A stretch of DNA of 64,000 nucleotides from Staphylococcus schleiferi. GTDB taxonomy: Bacteria > Bacillota > Bacilli > Staphylococcales > Staphylococcaceae. A program made the translations under genes and the position numbers. The stretch is from assembly GCF_900458895.1 (NCBI RefSeq), contig NZ_LR962863.1:434001-498000 (forward strand), given 5' to 3'. This document shows positions 5,687 to 19,037 of this stretch, in pieces. Position 1 is the stretch's first letter. Each line of letters begins with the position of its first letter. The notes beneath the pieces are model-generated. The model was not told the origin of the DNA. It saw only the letters and a list, made by a program, of their open reading frames with translations, and ran no database searches.

Positions 5687-5738
5687 AAGCATAATGTGAA
5701 CGTCGAGATCTTATCGGCTACTCGCATTGTGCTTTTTT
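5687..5738 (+). terminator. Terminator after the GTPase gene
   Basis: Inverted repeat AAGCATAATG / CATTGTGCTT (one G-U pair) ends in six T residues, 19 bases after the GTPase stop. Confidence 0.75.
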
Positions 5739-5888
5739 AATTTGAATTTCGATTGATTAGATTATTCGTCTTATTTGAGAAAGCGTTATCATAATGATAG
5801 AATAAATGTGATAGAAGTATTTATTTCTCAGTTATATTGTTTGTTATTTAATATATTGGGGAATGCTAATAATGAGGAGGGATTGGAT

Positions 5889-6311
5889 ATGTTTAAAAAT
5901 ATTCTAGTTCCATTTGATTTCGGAAATAGTTTTAAAAATGTACCTGAGCAATTAGTGAAATTAACAGGTGAAAATTCTGCATATAAAATTGTCGTTTTTA
6001 ATGTTATTTCTGAAACGGAACTTGCAAATTATGTACGCTATCAAGGCAAACATTTTGAAGAAGTTGTTGAAGAGAAAAAAGATGAAATGAAACCATTTTT
6101 AAAATCTTTAGACGATGCCAACTTAAAATATGATGTCAAGTTTACGACAGGCGCAGCTACGAAAGAAATCGTCAATGAAGTTGAAAATGCAGACTATGAC
6201 GTTGTAGTCATGAGTAACAAACGTTCCGAAGTTGAAATTAAGCACGTGTTAGGACATGTTACACATAAAATTGCGAAACGTGTCAATATCCCTGTAATGA
6301 TTATAAAATAA
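5889..6311 (+). CDS. Universal stress protein, UspA family
   Basis: Small cytoplasmic stress protein of 140 residues with the Usp fold. The N-terminus MFKNILVPFDFG is the usual first strand. DYDVVVMSNKR and LGHVTHKIAKRVNIPVMIIK form the C-terminal part, where the ATP-binding Usp proteins carry G-x2-G-x9-G. Only part of that glycine motif is present, so nucleotide binding is uncertain. The start is ATG 5889, with AGGAGG 9 bases upstream; a longer frame from 5775 has no ribosome site and would add a non-homologous leader. It stands alone between two terminators. Confidence 0.88.
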   Translation: MFKNILVPFDFGNSFKNVPEQLVKLTGENSAYKIVVFNVISETELANYVRYQGKHFEEVVEEKKDEMKPFLKSLDDANLKYDVKFTTGAATKEIVNEVENADYDVVVMSNKRSEVEIKHVLGHVTHKIAKRVNIPVMIIK

Positions 6312-6355
6312 TAATAAATAACTTCAGTAAATGATATGGTTATAATGTAGTTTCT

Positions 6356-6388
6356 CCCTTCAGACATTCGTTGTTTGAAGGGTTTTTT
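6356..6388 (+). terminator. Terminator after usp
   Basis: CCCTTCA (6356-6362) pairs with TGAAGGG (6376-6382) and is followed by six T residues. Confidence 0.85.
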
Positions 6389-6522
6389 CGTGGAATTGCT
6401 GGAATAAGCGGAATTACCATATTGACTCTATATTACTTTGTGGATATAATATAAAAAAATAATAGTAATAAGTGAATATAATATACATTTTATTTGTATT
6501 CGAGTAATAAGGAGGGAAGTTG

Positions 6523-6783
6523 ATGCATTATTATGCGTATGTAGACAGAGAAGTGTGTATTTCTTGTTCAGCTTGTGGTGCTGCGGCGCCCCGATTGTTT
6601 CGGTATGATGCTCAAGGGATAGCGTACATGTGTTTAGATTGTAATAGTGGCACGGCGCATATACCTGAATGTGACTTAGAAAATTTAGATGATGCAGTTG
6701 AAAATTGTCCCACGTCAGCGATTATAGTGAGACAGCAGCCTTTTTCGTTACCGATCATATTAGACAGAGAGAAGGAATTCTAA
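6523..6783 (+). CDS. Single-cluster [4Fe-4S] ferredoxin
   Basis: Electron carrier of 86 residues. Cys motif CISCSAC near the N-terminus and the distal CP pair in VENCPTSAI match staphylococcal/Bacillus Fer-type ferredoxins that hold one [4Fe-4S] cluster. Two extra cysteines lie in YMCLDCNS in the middle, which standard Fer proteins do not have to my knowledge. GGAGGG sits 6 bases before ATG 6523; TTG 6520 is a weaker choice. The stop overlaps the next start (TAATG), so translation of the unknown 561-residue protein is coupled. Its place at the head of this operon suggests it serves a redox step there rather than general metabolism (inference). Confidence 0.88.
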   Translation: MHYYAYVDREVCISCSACGAAAPRLFRYDAQGIAYMCLDCNSGTAHIPECDLENLDDAVENCPTSAIIVRQQPFSLPIILDREKEF

Positions 6784-8468
6784 TGAAGCAAAAAGGTTTT
6801 GAACAGTTGTTGGAAGAAATGCACGTAAAGGTGACACAGCTCGAGCAACCGATAGAAGTGATTGAAACGATGCTAACATTGGATGGTAAAATTCCACTTG
6901 AGATTGCACGACAAAGTTTGAATTTTGAACAATGGGCGATTTATCAACATTTGGCGCATGCGACGTGTGTATTTACAGATGAACAACCATCAAATCCAAA
7001 GCAAGCCATCAGTTTTGGAATGTCAGCCTATGGGCGTCTTCACTTAGGACCGAGTTTCACTGATGACTATACGAAAGTTTGGGGTTATTTTTCATTGACG
7101 CCAGAAGCAATGTCTGAAATTGAACAATTGACGACACGTTTGCAATCGGAGGAAATGTTGCGTTATCAATCAGAAGTTGTTCCTTTTTTCCGGCATTTAC
7201 AACCGCAAGACGTGTTACGAGTCATTGATGCAATTAAAGAAAAAGTGGATTTTATGGCACCGGTATTACTGTATTATAACGGGCATACGTATACGACGTT
7301 TTATCATTACAATAATCTACTTAAAAGCTTAGAAGGTGATACCGCACGCTTTTTACTAGATGATTTGGCTGAGAAAAATAAGGGTACGTGGACAAGAGAT
7401 GAACGTATATTTATTTTTAACCTCTATACATTGTTGCAATCCGGTCCGCCTGCTAGAGGAGAAGAGGTGAATGGTGTTCATTTTTCACTGCATTATTTAT
7501 CCCAATATTTAGAAGAAAAGTTAGCGATTTATCATGAAATGACGGATACGCCTTCCAAACCTATACCCAAATCTCTTTTAGCGAAAGCACGATTGATATG
7601 TCAGTTGCGTGAAAAAGTTGCGGAAAACTATGTCATTTACCGAAAAATTAACGGCCTCAACTTACATAAACAAGAACAGTTTTTAAACAAGCAAAAAGTT
7701 GGACTGTATCATGATGAAGCGATGGAGAATGAATTAGCACAAATATTAAGGATGTCGTCAGAAGAGACGTATCAAGACGCATTTATAAACTATATTGCGC
7801 AACATCCGGATATTACGGTGATCCAAACTTTGCTTGAAAAAATGGTAGGTTATGCGATACGGGCAACGGATTCAGATGTGGGAATGACGCGAGGTTTTAG
7901 ACAGCCATGGATGTATAATGATGCATTAAAACACCATCAGTTAGAAACAATTTTTGAATGGAAACAGCAATTTTATTTTTGTTGTGCGATACCGAGTGAC
8001 AAAATGAAACAAGCTTTTCTCAATCAAGGCCAAAAGTTGGCAGGTATTTTAACGGCGATTAGTAAACGCATGGAATACAACAGTTGGCACTATACACCGG
8101 GGAATTTTTTGAATGAGCGGCATCGGATTCAACGGCATTACTATTTTCCACCAGTGATGAGTGACATTACCGAATGGAGCAATCAGCATCATCAAGGGCA
8201 TGTATATGCAAATGTGAAACATGCGATACGTTGTCCGGGGACAATTCTATGTCTACCGTATACGTTAAATGCCTATTATGATTTACGGTTGATGAAAACG
8301 TCTGGCGTGATGTATTCTGAAATAGACTTAATGAAAGCGCTTTATTACAAAGAGGTTGTTGGTGCACTCTATCAAGCGTGGTTTGATTATTGTCGTGAAC
8401 ATCAAAGTCAACTTGATATGACGGCATATGATCGTAAATGGTATCAACAGCAATATACAAAGATTTAA
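6783..8468 (+). CDS. Unrecognised 561-residue protein in an ATP-grasp operon
   Basis: I do not recognise a family. The protein is soluble-looking, with no signal peptide or clear membrane segment. It is rich in His, Tyr and Gln, and its C-terminal third is dense in potential metal ligands: WHYTPGNF, RHYYFPP, NQHHQGHVYANVKHAIRC, then CLPYTLNAYYDLRLM. Cys pairs also appear (FYFCCAIP). Together with the translationally coupled ferredoxin upstream this would suit a metal-dependent redox enzyme, but that is inference. The frame is open throughout and codon use matches the neighbours. ATG 6783 overlaps the ferredoxin stop by one base. The ATP-grasp genes follow within 18 bases. Confidence 0.8.
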   Translation: MKQKGFEQLLEEMHVKVTQLEQPIEVIETMLTLDGKIPLEIARQSLNFEQWAIYQHLAHATCVFTDEQPSNPKQAISFGMSAYGRLHLGPSFTDDYTKVWGYFSLTPEAMSEIEQLTTRLQSEEMLRYQSEVVPFFRHLQPQDVLRVIDAIKEKVDFMAPVLLYYNGHTYTTFYHYNNLLKSLEGDTARFLLDDLAEKNKGTWTRDERIFIFNLYTLLQSGPPARGEEVNGVHFSLHYLSQYLEEKLAIYHEMTDTPSKPIPKSLLAKARLICQLREKVAENYVIYRKINGLNLHKQEQFLNKQKVGLYHDEAMENELAQILRMSSEETYQDAFINYIAQHPDITVIQTLLEKMVGYAIRATDSDVGMTRGFRQPWMYNDALKHHQLETIFEWKQQFYFCCAIPSDKMKQAFLNQGQKLAGILTAISKRMEYNSWHYTPGNFLNERHRIQRHYYFPPVMSDITEWSNQHHQGHVYANVKHAIRCPGTILCLPYTLNAYYDLRLMKTSGVMYSEIDLMKALYYKEVVGALYQAWFDYCREHQSQLDMTAYDRKWYQQQYTKI

Positions 8469-8486
8469 TATAGGAGCGTGAAGTGC

Positions 8487-9734
8487 GTGAAAACATTACT
8501 ATTTATTAATTTGAGAAGTCACAAAGTAGAGCGCGTTGCGCCGATAATTGAGGCAAAAAGACAAGGGTATCGTGTTGTATTGATGATAGACCATGATCCA
8601 CAACTGATTGACAGTGGACTAGATGAAGTGATTGAAATCGATACATATGATGAAACAGCAGTCGTTGAAGCAGTGCTTGCGTATCATCAAAAACAACCGT
8701 TGAGCGGGATACTGACATGGTCGGATAAAGATGTGGAATTGGTTGCGCAATTAAATGACCGCTTACAATTGCCAGGTATTCCGATGTCGCATGTCAAAAA
8801 TGCACGTAACAAATACTTAATGCGTGTAGCGTTCGATCAAGTGCCTGATATTTCACCTACTTTTGAAAATGTGCGCAGTGAAGATGATTTTCGTCGAGCT
8901 GTTGCACGCATTGGGACGCCAGGGATATTGAAACCAGTTGGCGCTTCGGGAAGTAAAGGAATTTTTAAAATCGAAAGTGAATCATGTATTGATGATGTGT
9001 ACGAAACTTTACGTCATGCGACATCACCAGAACGTGACAAAGTGTATTCTTATTATCCGAATGATTACATTTATGAAGGGTATCTTGTCGGTGAAGAAGT
9101 GTCGGTTGAAGGTGTCGTACAAAATGGAGAAGTACGCATTGCAGGGATTACGGACAAAGCGGTCACACCTGAATATTCACTGGAGTACATTGCGATTTTT
9201 CCGTCTGATAAACATGCTACCTTGCAACAAGAGATTAAGACGAAAGCGACACAAGCCATTCAAAGTTTAGGCATTGACCACTGTGCATTTCATCTGGAAG
9301 GTAGAGCAACGAAAGATGGTTTTAAAGTCATCGAAGCAGCAGCAAGACCAGGGGGCGGTTTCATTACGTCACATTTAATTCCAGGTGCATCAGGTCATTC
9401 GTTTATTGAAAAAATATTGGATGTGTCAGTCGGAAATGATGTGACTGAAAATTGGCCTATTTTTGATCAAACGTCAAAGAAAATGTGTTTTTATAGCGTC
9501 ATGGCGGAGCAAGCCGGAACATTTCAAGGGATTAAAGGGCTTGACCGCTTAGTTGAAATACCTGGCGTGCACTATGTCATTCCGTTAAAAAATGTTGGTG
9601 ATGCTATCGTCATGCCACCGGAACATTTTTCGAGTTGCTTTGTGCTCAATATCGTTTTAGAAGGTGAGACGACAGAAGCGCTTCGCCAAAAAATTGATTG
9701 GATTCATAAAGTGATTGAGGTGGTTGTGGAATGA
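8487..9734 (+). CDS. ATP-grasp ligase (carboxylate-amine/thiol type), first of pair
   Basis: ATP-grasp enzyme of 415 residues that would activate a carboxylate as acyl phosphate and join it to an amine or similar nucleophile. The N-terminal pre-grasp part (LLFINLRSHKVERVAPIIEA) is followed by the ATP lid GILKPVGASGSKGI near residue 150, YIYEGYLVGEEVSVEG, and the metal-binding EAAARPGGGFITSHL near 285. The architecture resembles L-amino-acid ligases of the BacD/DdaF kind more than housekeeping purine or biotin enzymes. GTG 8487 was chosen because AGGAG ends 10 bases upstream; GTG 8478 would be too close. Substrates cannot be read from sequence. Confidence 0.85.
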   Translation: MKTLLFINLRSHKVERVAPIIEAKRQGYRVVLMIDHDPQLIDSGLDEVIEIDTYDETAVVEAVLAYHQKQPLSGILTWSDKDVELVAQLNDRLQLPGIPMSHVKNARNKYLMRVAFDQVPDISPTFENVRSEDDFRRAVARIGTPGILKPVGASGSKGIFKIESESCIDDVYETLRHATSPERDKVYSYYPNDYIYEGYLVGEEVSVEGVVQNGEVRIAGITDKAVTPEYSLEYIAIFPSDKHATLQQEIKTKATQAIQSLGIDHCAFHLEGRATKDGFKVIEAAARPGGGFITSHLIPGASGHSFIEKILDVSVGNDVTENWPIFDQTSKKMCFYSVMAEQAGTFQGIKGLDRLVEIPGVHYVIPLKNVGDAIVMPPEHFSSCFVLNIVLEGETTEALRQKIDWIHKVIEVVVE

Positions 9735-10930
9735 CAATACTCATGTTATCAAGTACGGAGCATGCAAAAACACCTTATGATGAATGGTTTCCGGATACAG
9801 CAGAACAAATGATATTATTTTGTCCAGCTGAGAAAAAAGACAGTTATGCTGATAAAAACTATTTGCGTATTGAAGCCTTTGAACATTATATGGTAAATCC
9901 TAACATTGAAATGCGTGCGCTCGAATTAAGTGCGCAATATAACATTACACATGTGTTATCGATTTCGGAATTTGACGTCATTCGAGCAGCGAAAATTAGA
10001 GCGTTGTTGGAAATAGAAGGGCAGTCGTTAATCAGTGCAGAAGCGTATCGGGATAAAGTGCTAATGAAACAGTTGTTACAAAGCACGGCAGTAAAAATAC
10101 CCCACTTTGATAAAGCGATAGACGGCGCGAACATACAACGATTTGTAGAAAAGTACGGCTATCCTGTCGTGCTCAAGCCGATTGATGGCTCAGGTTCGTC
10201 AGATGTCGTGATTGCACGCGAACAACAGGATATTGACATGTTTTTGCAGACACATCCCGACATCGGAAGATATGAAATAGAACAGTTTATTGATGGGGAA
10301 ATGTATCATGTCGATGGACTTGTTCACAATGCAGAAGTGAAGTGTGCCTATGTTTCGCACTATTACAATGGATGTTTAGCATTTAAAGATCATCAGCCGT
10401 TAGCGAGTTATATGTTGAAGGCAGATAATTCACTCAGTCAAGCGCTACAGCAAGAAGTGAAGCAAGTCGTTGCGGCATTACCGACATTGCCGAACGGATC
10501 GTTTCATGCCGAATTTTTCGTGACACCGACGAATGACATCTATTTTTGTGAAATTGCAAGTCGTACAGGGGGTGGTGAAATCGGTCGTACGTTAGAACAT
10601 GCCATCGGAATGCAGCTCAATCAAATGAGTCTTTACTTACAAACAGGGCGTGCAGATGAGGTAGATGGCCACACACAAATTCAACGGTATGGCGGATTCA
10701 TCTTGTTACCTCCCCAAAATGCGACATTTCAAGGGATACAACAACAATTAGATGAAGATTGGGTGCTTTTTCAATCTCTTAAAGCGACACCAGGCCAATC
10801 ATTTGGCGCAGCGCAATTAAGTGTGAATCATATCATGTCAGTCGTCATCGAAGGAGAAGATGAGGCAACATTGATTGCGCGTATTGATCAAGTCATCGCG
10901 TGGTATCAGAAAGAAGTACAGTGGAAATGA
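9731..10930 (+). CDS. ATP-grasp ligase, second of pair
   Basis: Second ATP-grasp protein (399 residues), a distant paralogue of the one before it. It shows VVLKPIDGSGSSDVV near residue 150, YEIEQFIDGEMYHVDG near 185 and CEIASRTGGGEIG near 275, so the ATP and magnesium sites look intact. The ATG overlaps the upstream stop by four bases (ATGA), which indicates strict co-translation. Two different ATP-grasp ligases in a row are typical of small peptide or amide natural-product pathways, where each adds one building block. The operon ends here, facing an MFS transporter gene on the other strand. Confidence 0.85.
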   Translation: MTILMLSSTEHAKTPYDEWFPDTAEQMILFCPAEKKDSYADKNYLRIEAFEHYMVNPNIEMRALELSAQYNITHVLSISEFDVIRAAKIRALLEIEGQSLISAEAYRDKVLMKQLLQSTAVKIPHFDKAIDGANIQRFVEKYGYPVVLKPIDGSGSSDVVIAREQQDIDMFLQTHPDIGRYEIEQFIDGEMYHVDGLVHNAEVKCAYVSHYYNGCLAFKDHQPLASYMLKADNSLSQALQQEVKQVVAALPTLPNGSFHAEFFVTPTNDIYFCEIASRTGGGEIGRTLEHAIGMQLNQMSLYLQTGRADEVDGHTQIQRYGGFILLPPQNATFQGIQQQLDEDWVLFQSLKATPGQSFGAAQLSVNHIMSVVIEGEDEATLIARIDQVIAWYQKEVQWK

Positions 10931-11032
10931 TTGTATGCAACGGCACGCAATGATAACCTACGATCATGCATACACATCAGTTGATCAGGGGAGATTGAGT
11001 GTGGTTTTTATATTTGTGATAGGCATCGTTTA

Positions 11033-11080
11033 AAAAAGCAATCGGAAGGCTGGGAAAACTTAAATGCATCCCAGCCTTTT
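11033..11080. terminator. Bidirectional terminator between ATP-grasp operon and MFS gene
   Basis: AAGGCTGGGA (11046-11055) pairs with TCCCAGCCTT (11069-11078). A-rich sequence at 11033-11038 and T residues at 11077-11080 allow use from both strands. Confidence 0.85.
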
Positions 11081-11094
11081 AAATGTGGACTTTT

Positions 11095-12324
11095 TCAAAC
11101 CGCCTCATAACGTTTGACGGTTGAGAGTAATAATAGAAAGCCTATTACGACTGTTGCCAAAACTAAACCTGACATCATAAGTGGTGTGAGTACCGTACCA
11201 ATGATTAAAAATAGCCGTGATATGAGCTCTGCACCAATCGGTACCCAACTGTCTAGTGCAGAATGTGCACCACGTGTATCGGCAGGAATAAACCGTATTT
11301 TTTCTGCTTCCACAGTCGGCGTGAACAAAATTTCGCCAATTGTGGCCATCAACATGAAGATAACGAGGACGACTGCGTGGTTATTACTCATAACGACAGT
11401 ATAGCCTCCTGCGAAAAAGAGAAAGCCAATATTTAAAACGGTCGCGACTTTGAAACGTTTGAAATAATGTAAAATCGCAAAGCTTAAACTAATAATCGTC
11501 AAAGTATTGATTAATAACAATATTGAAAACATACGGACACCATCAATCGGAAAGCCAAACAATTGAAACGTTTTGAATTGATGTTCTAAACGCACTGCAA
11601 CATAGGATGAGAGTGACATTTCCGCACTTAATATGAGCATACTGCTGATAAGCAATAAGACGAAGGGTCGATTCCGATATGCCACTTGATAACGTTGAAA
11701 CATCGCCACAAAGCGACGTGCTGATGGATGACTGATTGTGCGTCGCGCTTCTTGTACACCAAAATAGAGAATCAACACATTCAAAGTCAAACAAATAAAA
11801 ATCAATATAAATAAACACACTTTGAACGAGCTGTAAAATAATCCTCCAATCAGCATCCCGAGTGCAGTAGAGGTGTTCGAAATCCAATACTTAAAGCGGG
11901 CATAGGGTTGTCGGTTTGTCTCGTCAATACTATCTAAAGCTAAAGCATTGTACATCGGTTTGGCTAAGGCAGTAAAGAGCTCATTGAGAAGGTAACAAGC
12001 CAAGAAAACCAAAAATAATAATTGAAATGACTGTGCCCCTTCTAATTGAGCCAATACAGCCCCCATACCTAGAAAGAGCAGTGCACTCATTGCCGTTAAA
12101 CAAGCGATGACATGCTTCTTAAGTGGTAAATGGTCGCTCAAATAGCCACCGATAATCGACCCGCTAAACTTTAATAAAATTCCGACAATGAGCATAAGTC
12201 CGGCTTTTTTACCGCCTAAATAGTGCGTGAGTAATAATGCCATAAACGGAAACACGGCATTCACTGAGGCATTTTGAATAAACAACATGAGTAAACGCAA
12301 CTTCACATTTTTAGGTAATGTCAT
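11095..12324 (-). CDS. MFS transporter, probable exporter
   Basis: Major facilitator membrane protein of 409 residues with about 12 hydrophobic segments. The loop between segments 2 and 3 reads GGYLSDHLPLKK, a form of the MFS signature. I placed the start at the second ATG because GGAGA lies 7 bases before it; the first ATG would be only 3 bases away. It converges on the ATP-grasp operon and shares its terminator. Location suggests export of that operon's product, but MFS proteins are common and the substrate is not visible; the link is inference. Confidence 0.85.
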   Translation of the reverse strand: MTLPKNVKLRLLMLFIQNASVNAVFPFMALLLTHYLGGKKAGLMLIVGILLKFSGSIIGGYLSDHLPLKKHVIACLTAMSALLFLGMGAVLAQLEGAQSFQLLFLVFLACYLLNELFTALAKPMYNALALDSIDETNRQPYARFKYWISNTSTALGMLIGGLFYSSFKVCLFILIFICLTLNVLILYFGVQEARRTISHPSARRFVAMFQRYQVAYRNRPFVLLLISSMLILSAEMSLSSYVAVRLEHQFKTFQLFGFPIDGVRMFSILLLINTLTIISLSFAILHYFKRFKVATVLNIGFLFFAGGYTVVMSNNHAVVLVIFMLMATIGEILFTPTVEAEKIRFIPADTRGAHSALDSWVPIGAELISRLFLIIGTVLTPLMMSGLVLATVVIGFLLLLSTVKRYEAV

Positions 12325-12482
12325 AAGCATATCTCCATTTTATAAGATAAAAAATATGTAAAATTAGTATTATATTACCTTTAAAGTGTAAGCGTGTCAA
12401 AATTTGTGTGAGACCGTTGTGCACGTTACAATTTTTAAGAGGCATTGGGCTATAATAAAGAGAAAGAATGGAGGGTTATCGT

Positions 12483-13412
12483 TTGGATATCAAACAAATG
12501 AAATACTTTGTAGAAGTTGTACGTCAAGAAGGGATGACACGTGCAGCAGAAACATTGTATATTGCACAGCCAACAATTAGTAAGGCAATCAAAGAGCTAG
12601 AATTAGAATTAGGAGAGCCATTATTTGATCGTTCGAAGCGGCAACTGAGCTTAACAGATGTGGGTGAAGTTTTCTTTAATAAAGCGTGTGAAATATTAAA
12701 TTTATATGATAGCTTACCTTTTGAAATCAGTAGTTTACTTGGAATAGAGAAAGGTTATGTTTCTATTGGATTATCTGCCATTATGGATATGGAAAGATTT
12801 GGACAAGTATTGGGAGAATTTCATCAAAAGTATCCGGATGTCGTTTTTAATCTGAATGAGAACGGCGGGAAAACGATTGAAGCTCAAGTGAGAAACAATG
12901 ATATCCATTTAGGGTTAACGTCCTTACCAGTAAATAACCAAGAATTCGATTCATTCCCACTCTATTCAGAGCGCTTTGAAGTGGTGATGCATCATCTCCA
13001 TCCGTTAGCACACCAACAAAGTGTGACAATTTCTGATTTAAAAGACGAAGATTTTGTGATGTTTAACGAGGATTTTTATTTGAATGATAAAATCATTGCG
13101 GTAACGCGCCAAGCGGGGTTCGTTCCGCATATTGTTTCTAAAATTTCGCAATGGCGTTTTATTGAGCATTTAATTACTGCCAAGATGGGGATTAGTATTT
13201 TGCCTGAGAACATCGTGCGTATCATTGCTCAGAATCCAGAAATCAGAGTCTTACAACTGAGTGATGTCACTTTAGATTGGGAGATGGGCGTGATATGGAA
13301 AAAAGATGTGCACCTTAACCATGCCACTAAAACTTTTTTAGATTACCTGAATATCCATCTGCCATTGGCACAACAAGGAGATAGCGTTATCATAGAAAAA
13401 AGTAATGATTGA
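12483..13412 (+). CDS. cidR: LysR-type regulator, CidR-like
   Basis: LysR transcription factor of 309 residues. The N-terminal winged helix shows MKYFVEVVRQEGMTRAAETLYIAQPTISKAIKELE in pieces that fit the LysR HTH, with the substrate-binding domain from about residue 90. I chose TTG 12483 because GGAGGG lies at 12470-12475, so the ATG at 12468 would overlap its own ribosome site. A TATAAT at 12451-12456 can act as -10. It precedes cidAB by 78 bases in the same direction, which matches the staphylococcal cidR-cidAB arrangement. CidR responds to acetate and pyruvate overflow in S. aureus (family knowledge). Confidence 0.87.
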   Translation: MDIKQMKYFVEVVRQEGMTRAAETLYIAQPTISKAIKELELELGEPLFDRSKRQLSLTDVGEVFFNKACEILNLYDSLPFEISSLLGIEKGYVSIGLSAIMDMERFGQVLGEFHQKYPDVVFNLNENGGKTIEAQVRNNDIHLGLTSLPVNNQEFDSFPLYSERFEVVMHHLHPLAHQQSVTISDLKDEDFVMFNEDFYLNDKIIAVTRQAGFVPHIVSKISQWRFIEHLITAKMGISILPENIVRIIAQNPEIRVLQLSDVTLDWEMGVIWKKDVHLNHATKTFLDYLNIHLPLAQQGDSVIIEKSND

Positions 13413-15269: not shown

Positions 15270-16238
15270 ATGCGCGTGATAATGAATGTTTATGTGTTGT
15301 TCTTGATCCTTTGTGTGCTCACTGTCTGCTCTTTATTTATTGGTGTGAGTCGTGTCCCTATCACTGAGCTATTTCAATTTAATGCGCATCAACTGAATAT
15401 CTTATGGGCAAGTCGAATACCAAGAACAGTAAGTATTTTAATTTCTGGGAGTGCTCTAGCGCTTGCAGGGCTTATTATGCAACAAATGATGCAAAACAAA
15501 TTTGTGAGTCCAACGACTGCAGGGACGATGGAATGGGCAAAATTAGGTATTTTAATATCACTTATCTTTTTCCCAAAACAACATATCCTTTTAAAATTGG
15601 TTTTTGCCGTTTTATGCAGCTTATTTGGAACATTTATGTTTGTTCAAATTGTGCAACGGATTAAGTTCAAAGACGTGATCTTTGTACCGCTCATCGGCAT
15701 CATGCTTGGCGGGATTGTCTCTAGTTTTGCGACTTTTATTGCATTAAGAACAAACGCTGTTCAGAGTATTGGCAATTGGCTAAATGGTAATTTCGCGATA
15801 ATTACGAGCGGACGCTATGAAGTTTTGTATTTGAGTATACCGCTACTCATTCTTACATATATTTTTGCAAATCAATTTACGATTGCTGGAATGGGACGTG
15901 ATTTCAGTAAAAATCTAGGCTTAAATTATGAATGGATTATGAATATAGGCTTGTTTATTACTGCCACGATGACTGCACTTGTTGTAGTCACTGTTGGGAC
16001 GTTACCTTTCTTAGGGTTGATTGTGCCAAACATTGTTTCAATTTTTAAGGGTGATCATTTAAAAAATGCGTTGCCACAAACAGCGATTCTCGGCGCCATT
16101 TTTGTGATGATTTCTGACATTTTTGGCCGTCTTATCGTTTATCCATACGAAATCAATATTGGACTAACGATTGGTATATTTGGCACATTTGTTTTTATTG
16201 TGATGTTAATGAAAGGACGTCGACATTATGAACAATAA
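15270..16238 (+). CDS. sstA: Iron-siderophore ABC permease SstA
   Basis: FecCD-family permease of 322 residues with about nine hydrophobic segments. Recognisable family pieces are RIPRTVSILISGSALALAG near residue 50 and GTLPFLGLIVPNI near 240, the latter at the coupling region to the ATPase. ATG 15270 lies 7 bases behind AAGGAG. It is the first gene of an operon preceded by a Fur box. SstABCD imports iron complexed to catechol compounds, including host catecholamines, in S. aureus; that role is transferred by homology and operon order. Confidence 0.92.
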   Translation: MRVIMNVYVLFLILCVLTVCSLFIGVSRVPITELFQFNAHQLNILWASRIPRTVSILISGSALALAGLIMQQMMQNKFVSPTTAGTMEWAKLGILISLIFFPKQHILLKLVFAVLCSLFGTFMFVQIVQRIKFKDVIFVPLIGIMLGGIVSSFATFIALRTNAVQSIGNWLNGNFAIITSGRYEVLYLSIPLLILTYIFANQFTIAGMGRDFSKNLGLNYEWIMNIGLFITATMTALVVVTVGTLPFLGLIVPNIVSIFKGDHLKNALPQTAILGAIFVMISDIFGRLIVYPYEINIGLTIGIFGTFVFIVMLMKGRRHYEQ

Positions 16239-17187
16239 ACCTTTGAGAACACTTATCTTTTTAATGTTAGGTACAGTGATTGCGGCTTTGATGTATTTAT
16301 TGATCGGAATTGATTTCGAAATATTTGCCTACCAAATTTCAAGTCGACTTAGAAAATTTTTCTTAATTTTATTAGTTGGCGCTGCGATATCCGCATCGAC
16401 AGTTGTTTTTCAGTCGATTACAGTCAATCGACTATTAACCCCGTCCATTATGGGATTAGATGCTGTCTACTTGTTTAGTAAAGTACTGATATTATTTGTA
16501 TTTGGTGTGAATTCAGTCTTCGTCCATTCTTTTTATTTAAATTTTTCAATATCGCTTATTGCTATGGTCATATTTGCACTGCTTTTATTTGAAGTTATTT
16601 TTAAATTCGGTCAGTTTTCTATCTATTTTATTTTACTGATCGGTGTTATTCTGGGGACATTTTTTAGAAGTATTACCAGTTTTCTTGAGCTCTTAATTAA
16701 CCCAGAAGATTTCTTAGCTGTACAAAGTGCCATGTTTGCAAATTTTGATGCATCTCAAACACCGCTTGTAATGATTTGTGCGGTTGTGTTACTTGTATTG
16801 CTTGGTATTACAGTGGCAGTGATTCCTTATTTAGACGTTCTCTTATTAGGGAGAGCCCAAGCGATTAATTTAGGTGTGAATTACAATGTGGTCACACGCT
16901 TACTGTTAATTCTTGTCGCACTACTAGTCGCTATTGCAACAGCTTTAGTAGGGCCGATTACCTTTTTAGGTCTTTTAACAATTAACTTAGCCCATGAGTT
17001 AATGAAAACATTTGAGCATCGCTATATATTACCTGCAACAATTTGTATCAGTTGGATTAGTTTATTTATAGCACAGTGGATTGTGGAACACTTATTCGAA
17101 GCAACAACACAAGTGAGTATACTGATTAATTTAATTGGTGGTATTTACTTTATTTACTTATTAATGAGAAGGAGGACAGCGGCATGA
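16228..17187 (+). CDS. sstB: Iron-siderophore ABC permease SstB
   Basis: Second FecCD-family permease (319 residues), partner of SstA in a heterodimeric channel. It has SSRLRKFFLILLVGAAISAS near the N-terminus and LVGPITFLGLLTINLAHELM near residue 230 as the ATPase-coupling segment. It overlaps sstA by 11 bases and sstC by 4, so the stoichiometry is likely set by translational coupling. Confidence 0.92.
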   Translation: MNNKPLRTLIFLMLGTVIAALMYLLIGIDFEIFAYQISSRLRKFFLILLVGAAISASTVVFQSITVNRLLTPSIMGLDAVYLFSKVLILFVFGVNSVFVHSFYLNFSISLIAMVIFALLLFEVIFKFGQFSIYFILLIGVILGTFFRSITSFLELLINPEDFLAVQSAMFANFDASQTPLVMICAVVLLVLLGITVAVIPYLDVLLLGRAQAINLGVNYNVVTRLLLILVALLVAIATALVGPITFLGLLTINLAHELMKTFEHRYILPATICISWISLFIAQWIVEHLFEATTQVSILINLIGGIYFIYLLMRRRTAA

Positions 17188-17945
17188 TTCGTATTCGAGG
17201 ATTAAACCAATCTATCGATGGTAAAGAGATACTCAAAGATATTGATGTTGATATTGAAAAAGGAAAATTAACATCTTTGATTGGTCCAAACGGTGCTGGA
17301 AAGAGTACATTACTTTCAGCAATGAGTCGTTTGAATTCATTTGATTCTGGGGCTATTGAGATCGAGGGTCAAGCAATAGAAACGTATCAAAGTCAGACGC
17401 TTGCGCAACGTTTATCCATTCTGAAACAAACTAATCATACAGAGTTAAATATTACCGTTGAACAGCTCGTTAATTTTGGTCGCTTTCCTTATTCGAAGGG
17501 CTATTTAAAGAAAGAGGATAAAGAAAAAGTTAATGAAGCACTCTCATTATTAAAGTTGGAAGAAATTCGACATCGTTATCTTAAAACGTTATCCGGAGGT
17601 CAGCGTCAACGCGCTTATATTGCGATGACAATTGCTCAAGATACGGATTACATTTTATTAGATGAGCCTTTAAATAATTTGGATATGAAGCATTCTGTCC
17701 AAATTATGCAGACGTTACGTGAACTTGCTGCTTTTCACAATAAGACCATTGTGGTTGTCTTACATGATATTAATTTTGCTTCTGTATATTCAGATCGTAT
17801 TGTCGCTCTGAAGGATGGCAAATTGATCAAAGCAGCACCTAAACGCGAAGTCATTCATACAGCTGTATTAAAAGAACTTTATGAAATGGATGTCAAAATA
17901 GAAGAAATTCGTGGACAACAGATTTGTATTTATTTTGATGAATAA
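17184..17945 (+). CDS. sstC: Iron-siderophore ABC ATPase SstC
   Basis: 253-residue ATPase energising SstAB. Visible motifs are Walker A GPNGAGKST (about residue 34), Q-loop region LKQTNHTELN, signature LSGGQRQR (about 133), Walker B YILLDEPLNNLD (about 152) and H-loop VLHDINF. All catalytic residues are present. Its start overlaps sstB by four bases. Confidence 0.95.
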   Translation: MIRIRGLNQSIDGKEILKDIDVDIEKGKLTSLIGPNGAGKSTLLSAMSRLNSFDSGAIEIEGQAIETYQSQTLAQRLSILKQTNHTELNITVEQLVNFGRFPYSKGYLKKEDKEKVNEALSLLKLEEIRHRYLKTLSGGQRQRAYIAMTIAQDTDYILLDEPLNNLDMKHSVQIMQTLRELAAFHNKTIVVVLHDINFASVYSDRIVALKDGKLIKAAPKREVIHTAVLKELYEMDVKIEEIRGQQICIYFDE

Positions 17946-18002
17946 TGCTGTATATCATTAAAAGCAACACGATTAAATAGCTTAAATATGTGGAGGAAAA
18001 CA

Positions 18003-19037
18003 ATGAAAAAACTGGGTCTATTATTAATGATGACACTCATGGTGATTTTAGTCGCATGTGGTAATCAAAACAATGATAAAAAAGAAGAAACGAAAGAAGC
18101 GGACAGCAAAAAAACTGTTGAAATTAAAAATGATTTCACTTTAAGAGGGGAAGCTAAAGACGGTAGCGAAGACAAATCATATCAAGATACAGTGAAATTA
18201 GATAAAGTTCCTGAAAAAGCAGTCGTTTTTGATTATGGTACGGTCGATACGATGAAAGCACTTGGATTAGAAGATAAAATTGTCGCGTTACCAAAAGGTG
18301 AAGGTGGTGCATCACTTCCAGATTTCTTAGATGATTTTAAAGATGATCGCTATGCGAATACAGGGAGTTTGAAAGAGATTAATTTTGATGTTGTCGCAAA
18401 AGCAAAACCAGATGTCATTTATTTATCACCAAGAACAGCGTCACAGAAAAATATTGATGAATTAAAAAAAGCAGCCCCTAAAGCAAAATTAATTTATACG
18501 GGTGCTAACGATAAAAATTATGTAGCTTCTATGAAAACAAACACTGAAAATTTAGGTAAGATTTATGATCAATCAGACAAAGCGAATCAACTTGTTAAAG
18601 ATTTAGACCAAAAGATTGATGAAATGAAAGCAAAAACGAAAAACATTGATGAAAAAGCAATGTACTTACTTGTTAATGAAGGTGAATTATCAACATTTGG
18701 CGCTGGTGACCGTTTTGGTAATTTAGTTTATGGTACATTAGGATTTAAACCAGCTGATGACCACATTAAGAGTAGTAGACATGGTCAGAATGTGACAAAT
18801 GAATATGTCAGTGAGAAAAATCCAGGTATTATTTTTGCGATGGATCGTGGTCAAGCGATAGGTGAACAATCTTCAGCAAAACAGGTACTTAGCAATGATG
18901 TGCTTAAAAATGTAAAAGCAATCAAAGATAAAAAAGTTGTCGAAGTAGATCCAAAATTATGGTATTTTGCATCTGGTTCAACGACTACAACAATTAAACA
19001 AATTGATGAATTGGAAAAAGGGCTTAACTTAAAATAA
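18003..19037 (+). CDS. sstD: Iron-siderophore binding lipoprotein SstD
   Basis: Membrane-anchored substrate-binding protein (344 residues). The signal peptide ends with lipobox LVAC, with the lipidated Cys at residue 19, followed by a lysine/glutamate-rich linker and a TroA/FecB-type two-lobe domain containing VVAKAKPDVIYLSPRT. The start ATG 18003 follows TGGAGG at 8 bases; the ATG at 17988 overlaps that ribosome site and was rejected. It closes the sst operon 57 bases after sstC. By homology it binds catechol-type siderophores and catecholamine-iron. Confidence 0.93.
   Translation: MKKLGLLLMMTLMVILVACGNQNNDKKEETKEADSKKTVEIKNDFTLRGEAKDGSEDKSYQDTVKLDKVPEKAVVFDYGTVDTMKALGLEDKIVALPKGEGGASLPDFLDDFKDDRYANTGSLKEINFDVVAKAKPDVIYLSPRTASQKNIDELKKAAPKAKLIYTGANDKNYVASMKTNTENLGKIYDQSDKANQLVKDLDQKIDEMKAKTKNIDEKAMYLLVNEGELSTFGAGDRFGNLVYGTLGFKPADDHIKSSRHGQNVTNEYVSEKNPGIIFAMDRGQAIGEQSSAKQVLSNDVLKNVKAIKDKKVVEVDPKLWYFASGSTTTTIKQIDELEKGLNLK

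Follow-up and report, generated by a model that had tools for sequence, protein, structure and literature searches.

The stretch of Staphylococcus schleiferi DNA analysed here (64,000 nucleotides, contig NZ_LR962863.1, positions 434,001 to 498,000; hereafter the window) contains a cassette in which genes for a ferredoxin, a 561-amino-acid (aa) protein and two ATP-grasp ligases (A and B) are followed by a gene for a transporter of the major facilitator superfamily (MFS). Its features are listed below.

6508..12330, no strand: five-gene cassette, a block in which DNA identity between species is raised, reaching from the ribosome site of the ferredoxin gene to the start of the MFS gene (approximate edges, at a bin width of 300 bases)
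6422..6450, plus strand: candidate sigma-A promoter TTGACT-17-TATAAT, 11/12 matches
6523..6783, plus strand: dedicated single-cluster [4Fe-4S] ferredoxin, 86 aa (1iqz match, alignment)
6783..8468, plus strand: KinJ/FzmP/NegJ-family protein, 561 aa, predicted hydrazino-amino-acid-forming heme enzyme (homology, residues, tree, fold)
8487..9734, plus strand: ATP-grasp ligase A, 415 aa, L-amino-acid-ligase-like (3vot 8.9e-23; BacD 2.3e-15)
9731..10930, plus strand: ATP-grasp ligase B, 399 aa, L-amino-acid-ligase-like (4wd3 2.3e-15)
11046..11078, no strand: 10-bp hairpin, possible terminator for both sides (read from letters)
11095..12330, minus strand: MFS transporter, 411 aa, predicted exporter, within the transferred block (Pfam, gene order, identity profile)

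An earlier note on this DNA had described four plus-strand genes tied together by TAATG, 18 bases and ATGA, and these coordinates were confirmed from the letters and the list of open reading frames (ORFs). The ferredoxin gene starts with ATG at 6523 and its stop codon (6781-6783) has one base in common with the ATG of the 561-aa gene, 18 bases (8469-8486) separate the latter from the GTG start of ligase A at 8487, and the two ligase genes overlap in ATGA. All reading frames of the cassette are intact, and the MFS gene, which has an alternative inner ATG at 12324, converges on the other four. The earlier note also had the MFS gene sharing their terminator; the convergent minus-strand orientation was borne out, and a perfect hairpin between the ligase B and MFS genes (arms 11046-11055 and 11069-11078, 13-nt loop) is plausible as a common terminator, although the terminator scan, whose loop limit is 8, has no entry for it. 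Promoter and terminator scans of the cassette region returned no more sites than in shuffles, which holds also for sites such as TTGACT-17-TATAAT; this promoter candidate is evident in genome G222 only and not in the other four aligned species. No Rfam family was found in 5700-12600.

The 561-aa protein, which the earlier note had called unknown, was placed by homology and neighbourhood searches in the family of KinJ, FzmP and NegJ, of which it is, judging by its sequence, a full-length homologue. This family of ferredoxin-dependent heme enzymes was introduced in 2025. According to a preprint of that year (PMC12154649), its members convert nitrite to hydrazino amino acids; the preprint already names Staphylococcus among the carriers of KinJ, and notes a single-cluster ferredoxin in the staphylococcal clusters and ATP-grasp genes in many KinJ clusters. 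Alignment revealed that all nine heme- and substrate-related residues numbered in that work are conserved in the window protein, where H473 is the expected heme ligand, while fold comparison of its predicted structure recovered the GAF-like C-terminal domain of the family. Searches of Pfam, NCBIfam and PDB sequences gave no family for the protein, a caspase-type NCBIfam match being discarded at 13.9 of 140 bits, and a second protein search, run with a profile, gave the 28 proteins of the first search again.

KinI/KinJ (kinamycin) and FzmP (fosfazinomycin) provide the closest described parallel, with a homologous enzyme carrying the same nine residues and GAF-like C-terminal half (PMC12154649). 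The comparison was made through Streptomyces relatives in such clusters, the KinJ and FzmP records themselves being left out. In four of seven Streptomyces records, those inspected, the gene lies beside genes for ferredoxin, glutamine synthetase, a lyase and a GNAT protein (4/4) and an amidase gene (2/4); these gene sets match the kin/fzm hydrazino cassette of PMC6133997, and the four relatives sit in cassettes of this type. The ferredoxin gene overlaps the enzyme gene there as it does in the window. In contrast, KinI has two 4Fe-4S clusters (PMC12154649) where the window ferredoxin has one, and the glutamine synthetase, lyase, acetyltransferase and amidase genes of kin/fzm clusters are absent from the window cassette, Pfam detecting none of these kin/fzm/lom functions among the five genes and two tested neighbours. 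NegJ (negamycin), likened here by description only, is a heme enzyme of the same family whose cluster includes an ATP-grasp gene; the neg cluster also has lysine-modifying and methylation enzymes and its ferredoxin is encoded elsewhere (PMC12154649), whereas the window combines two ATP-grasps with a dedicated ferredoxin.

KinJ acts on L-aspartate (PMC12154649); for the window enzyme, phylogeny assigned no substrate, in a tree without NegJ. In this tree the seven staphylococcal rows, as grouped by us and including P0002 and P0013 (which have no species label), form one group (100/100), and a long branch carries the four rows from Streptomyces. At residues 435-437 (window 8085-8093) the window protein shares the motif WHY with 19 further rows of the 26-row alignment, but the motif is WHF in P0028, in Burkholderia and in the four cassette proteins from Streptomyces; this difference is a possible marker of substrate or partner.

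The best match of the ferredoxin is 1iqz, which has a single cluster (8.6e-21). All nine aligned operon copies retain the cysteines of CxxCxxC and CP, and the ferredoxin gene adjoins the KinJ gene in 9/9 KinJ-positive staphylococcal genomes; the window genome holds a second ferredoxin, a 51%-identical paralogue at 1365528. Both ligases have an ATP-grasp domain and resemble solved L-amino-acid ligases, ligase A being nearest to BL00235 (3vot, 8.9e-23) and also similar to BacD (2.3e-15), and ligase B nearest to 4wd3 (2.3e-15), which we take to be RizA. Alignments with 3vot and 4wd3 show that the glutamates and arginine of the last ATP-grasp stretch (E-x-x-x-R-x-G-G type), which have a catalytic role, are kept. 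The earlier assignment to the BacD/DdaF type was upheld as far as a predicted L-amino-acid-ligase-like character is concerned, but not at the level of the curated NCBIfam scores, which are far from reached by ligase A (DdaF 67.8 of 840 bits; BacD 61 of 850 bits) or ligase B (DdaF 53.6 bits; BacD 21.2 bits). Single ligase A sequences labelled S. pseudintermedius are found on up to 1000 contigs.

A family profile detected a full-length KinJ copy in 9/84 genomes of the genus and, in a sample of the class, in 4/398 genomes with the window's own counted. A match in G012 (18.4 bits, one in-frame stop) was left out of the genome count; no cassette gene was found nearby. Ferredoxin, KinJ, ligase A and ligase B occur in this order in all nine KinJ-positive staphylococcal genomes, the ligase frames being interrupted in G023, and this co-inheritance answers the earlier note, which would have abandoned its proposal had the set not been conserved together in other genomes. 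The four-gene core occupies two unrelated sites with two different transporters. Six of the nine carriers, including the window, have it behind usp; the convergent MFS gene is present in the stretches of five of these, while in G015 the contig ends and an MFS gene lies at the edge of another contig. In G002 the set is flanked by guaA and a glyoxalase gene, and after it comes, in the same orientation, a different MFS gene (Pfam; 19% identical to that of the window), and G023 and G453 have ORFs of similar size and order at a guaA/glyoxalase-type site, the transporter ORF of G023 being 21% identical to the window MFS.

A close dcd gene occurs in 16/84 genomes, and eight of these without KinJ were inspected at this place. 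Two have an empty site, usp being directly followed by cidR (about 435 and 365 bp apart); four have usp without cidR in the stretch and two have neither. G024 (L075 107-1339 and L076 8900-9729), whose flanking genes are 97-99% identical to those of the window, retains at the site nothing more than a stretch of the ferredoxin and pieces of the MFS gene, with a full MFS gene on another contig; a genome-wide search found neither KinJ nor ligase A. In another genus of the Bacilli, G059 (L021 6326-11138) has a KinJ homologue beside Sua5/YrdC-like, glycine-cleavage-T-like and MFS genes, flanked on both sides by transposase genes and with no ATP-grasp among the genes tested, which may represent a different KinJ pathway.

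Compared with three species in bins of 300 bases, the window shows a DNA identity of 65-78% in the left flank, 83-95% in the cassette and 71-82% on the right side through cidR, cidA and cidB; the bin over the ligase B-MFS junction falls to 76-77% in two of the three species. Per synonymous site, the cassette differs by 0.08-0.46 from that of G222, G407, G457 and G015, and by 0.40-0.48 in the three cassette genes surviving in G442, compared to 0.57-0.80 in the flanking dcd, cobW, usp, cidR, cidA and cidB (where present); against G444, cassette and flanks are both near saturation. As the raised identity and lower synonymous difference are confined to the five genes, we infer that these, MFS included, have been exchanged between species as a unit. 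The ratio of nonsynonymous to synonymous change (dN/dS) for KinJ, both ligases and MFS is 0.07-0.16 against the same four genomes (G015 without MFS in the stretch), and that of the ferredoxin is 0.18-0.25, or 0.78 against G457, where synonymous changes are few; the G453 ferredoxin value is approximate, its stretch being trimmed. By these ratios selection on the cassette is purifying, which together with the recurrent gene order in other species substantiates the claim that the genes belong together. The co-occurrence of the core in 9/9 genomes, its two sites and two transporters, its movement as a block and purifying selection are new in this analysis.

The best reading of the locus is that proposed in the earlier note, a pathway to a small molecule that includes a redox step and two ligases forming amides, and we consider it probable (about 0.77) that its product contains an N-N bond, the chemistry being that expected from the family. 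The ferredoxin would supply electrons to the KinJ-like enzyme, presumably heme-binding, which would combine nitrite with an amino acid, by precedent aspartate or glycine, into a hydrazino acid. Nitrite would probably be provided by the nitrate reductase NarG, whose gene lies elsewhere in the genome (545090-548668). The two ligases would then join the hydrazino acid to amino acids in two ATP-dependent couplings of presumed order, the linkage being a hydrazide by analogy with negamycin, and the MFS protein would export the product. Several observations weigh against this scheme, the chemistry of which is wholly inferred. The enzyme is only 24-28% identical to eight plasmid-borne relatives (query coverage >80% in three, 65-71% in the remainder), so that substrate and product may differ; fold support is modest, given that ranks down to 50 lie within 1.3 of the top score and include other folds (e.g. 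a Rag-like GTPase); the cluster has neither CreDE nor the remaining four genes of the kin/fzm cassette; and NarG is above cut-off in 70/84 staphylococci and is thus not specific to KinJ carriers. Similarly, LAL_C2 (PF18603) scores 27.4 bits in ligase A, just below the Pfam cut-off of 29.4, and is unmatched by Pfam in ligase B, while G442 retains both ligases and MFS without KinJ or ferredoxin in the stretch inspected, a pattern which may mean that the ligases serve an independent function or that the locus is decaying.

The low identity to plasmid-borne relatives and the lack of any other kin/fzm cassette gene would also suit an enzyme that reduces nitrite or nitric oxide (NO) at its heme to a different end, for detoxification or towards a nitroso or hydroxylamine product, with the ligases making a peptide-like compound without an N-N bond; an NO synthase is also encoded in the genome, putting other nitrogen oxides at hand. 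We regard this as unlikely, as the KinJ-like protein retains all nine active-site residues and has a dedicated adjacent ferredoxin, and ATP-grasp genes accompany many KinJ clusters (PMC12154649). The remnants in G024, the absence of KinJ from G442 and the interrupted ligase frames of G023 could be taken to indicate a locus in decay, left over from a pathway that was active in the past, a very improbable explanation for the window, where frames are intact, dN/dS is low and ligase A is so widely represented in S. pseudintermedius.

Even less credible is that the genes belong to a known staphylococcal pathway for a cofactor or metallophore. Downstream of cidAB, at 15270-19037, ORFs resemble by eye a FecCD-type iron-siderophore ABC transporter and binding protein, but such ORFs do not adjoin the cassette in S. 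pseudintermedius (L008), Pfam finds staphyloferrin- or staphylopine-type domains in none of the five genes, and a word search of the main text of a genus-wide metallophore survey (PMC12709192) met no mention of ATP-grasp, ferredoxin or hydrazine. Similar ORFs, again by eye, adjoin dcd in G444 (L077 14277-18059). Elsewhere in the window, at 168-877, a TarI/IspD-like ORF is separated from the next ORF by 119 bases; its 196 aa look short for the TarI/IspD family and it may be truncated.

Literature searches, covering titles, abstract starts and some full texts with subscription papers mostly outside, returned no paper on a staphylococcal product of the cassette, and passages of PMC13274452 and PMC12300986 contain nothing on this cluster. 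The earlier suggestion of an undescribed system thus stands for the staphylococcal product, but not for the KinJ family and its carriage by Staphylococcus; given what PMC12154649 reports of staphylococcal ferredoxins and ATP-grasps, the kind is already known and the staphylococcal member is new. It is a tentative and rather doubtful extension of the N-N bond pathway that staphylococci of animals and human skin secrete an undescribed hydrazide pseudo-tripeptide, made from the nitrite of nitrate respiration, and that the five-gene cassette is handed from one species to another as a factor in competition. The N-N bond is rare in biology, and enzymes of the KinJ type form it reductively, without oxygen. 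The cassette offers a compact setting for such an enzyme, with its ferredoxin, two ligases and a transporter, in culturable bacteria, and close relatives with partial losses make both the enzyme's substrate and the staphylococcal metabolite directly testable.
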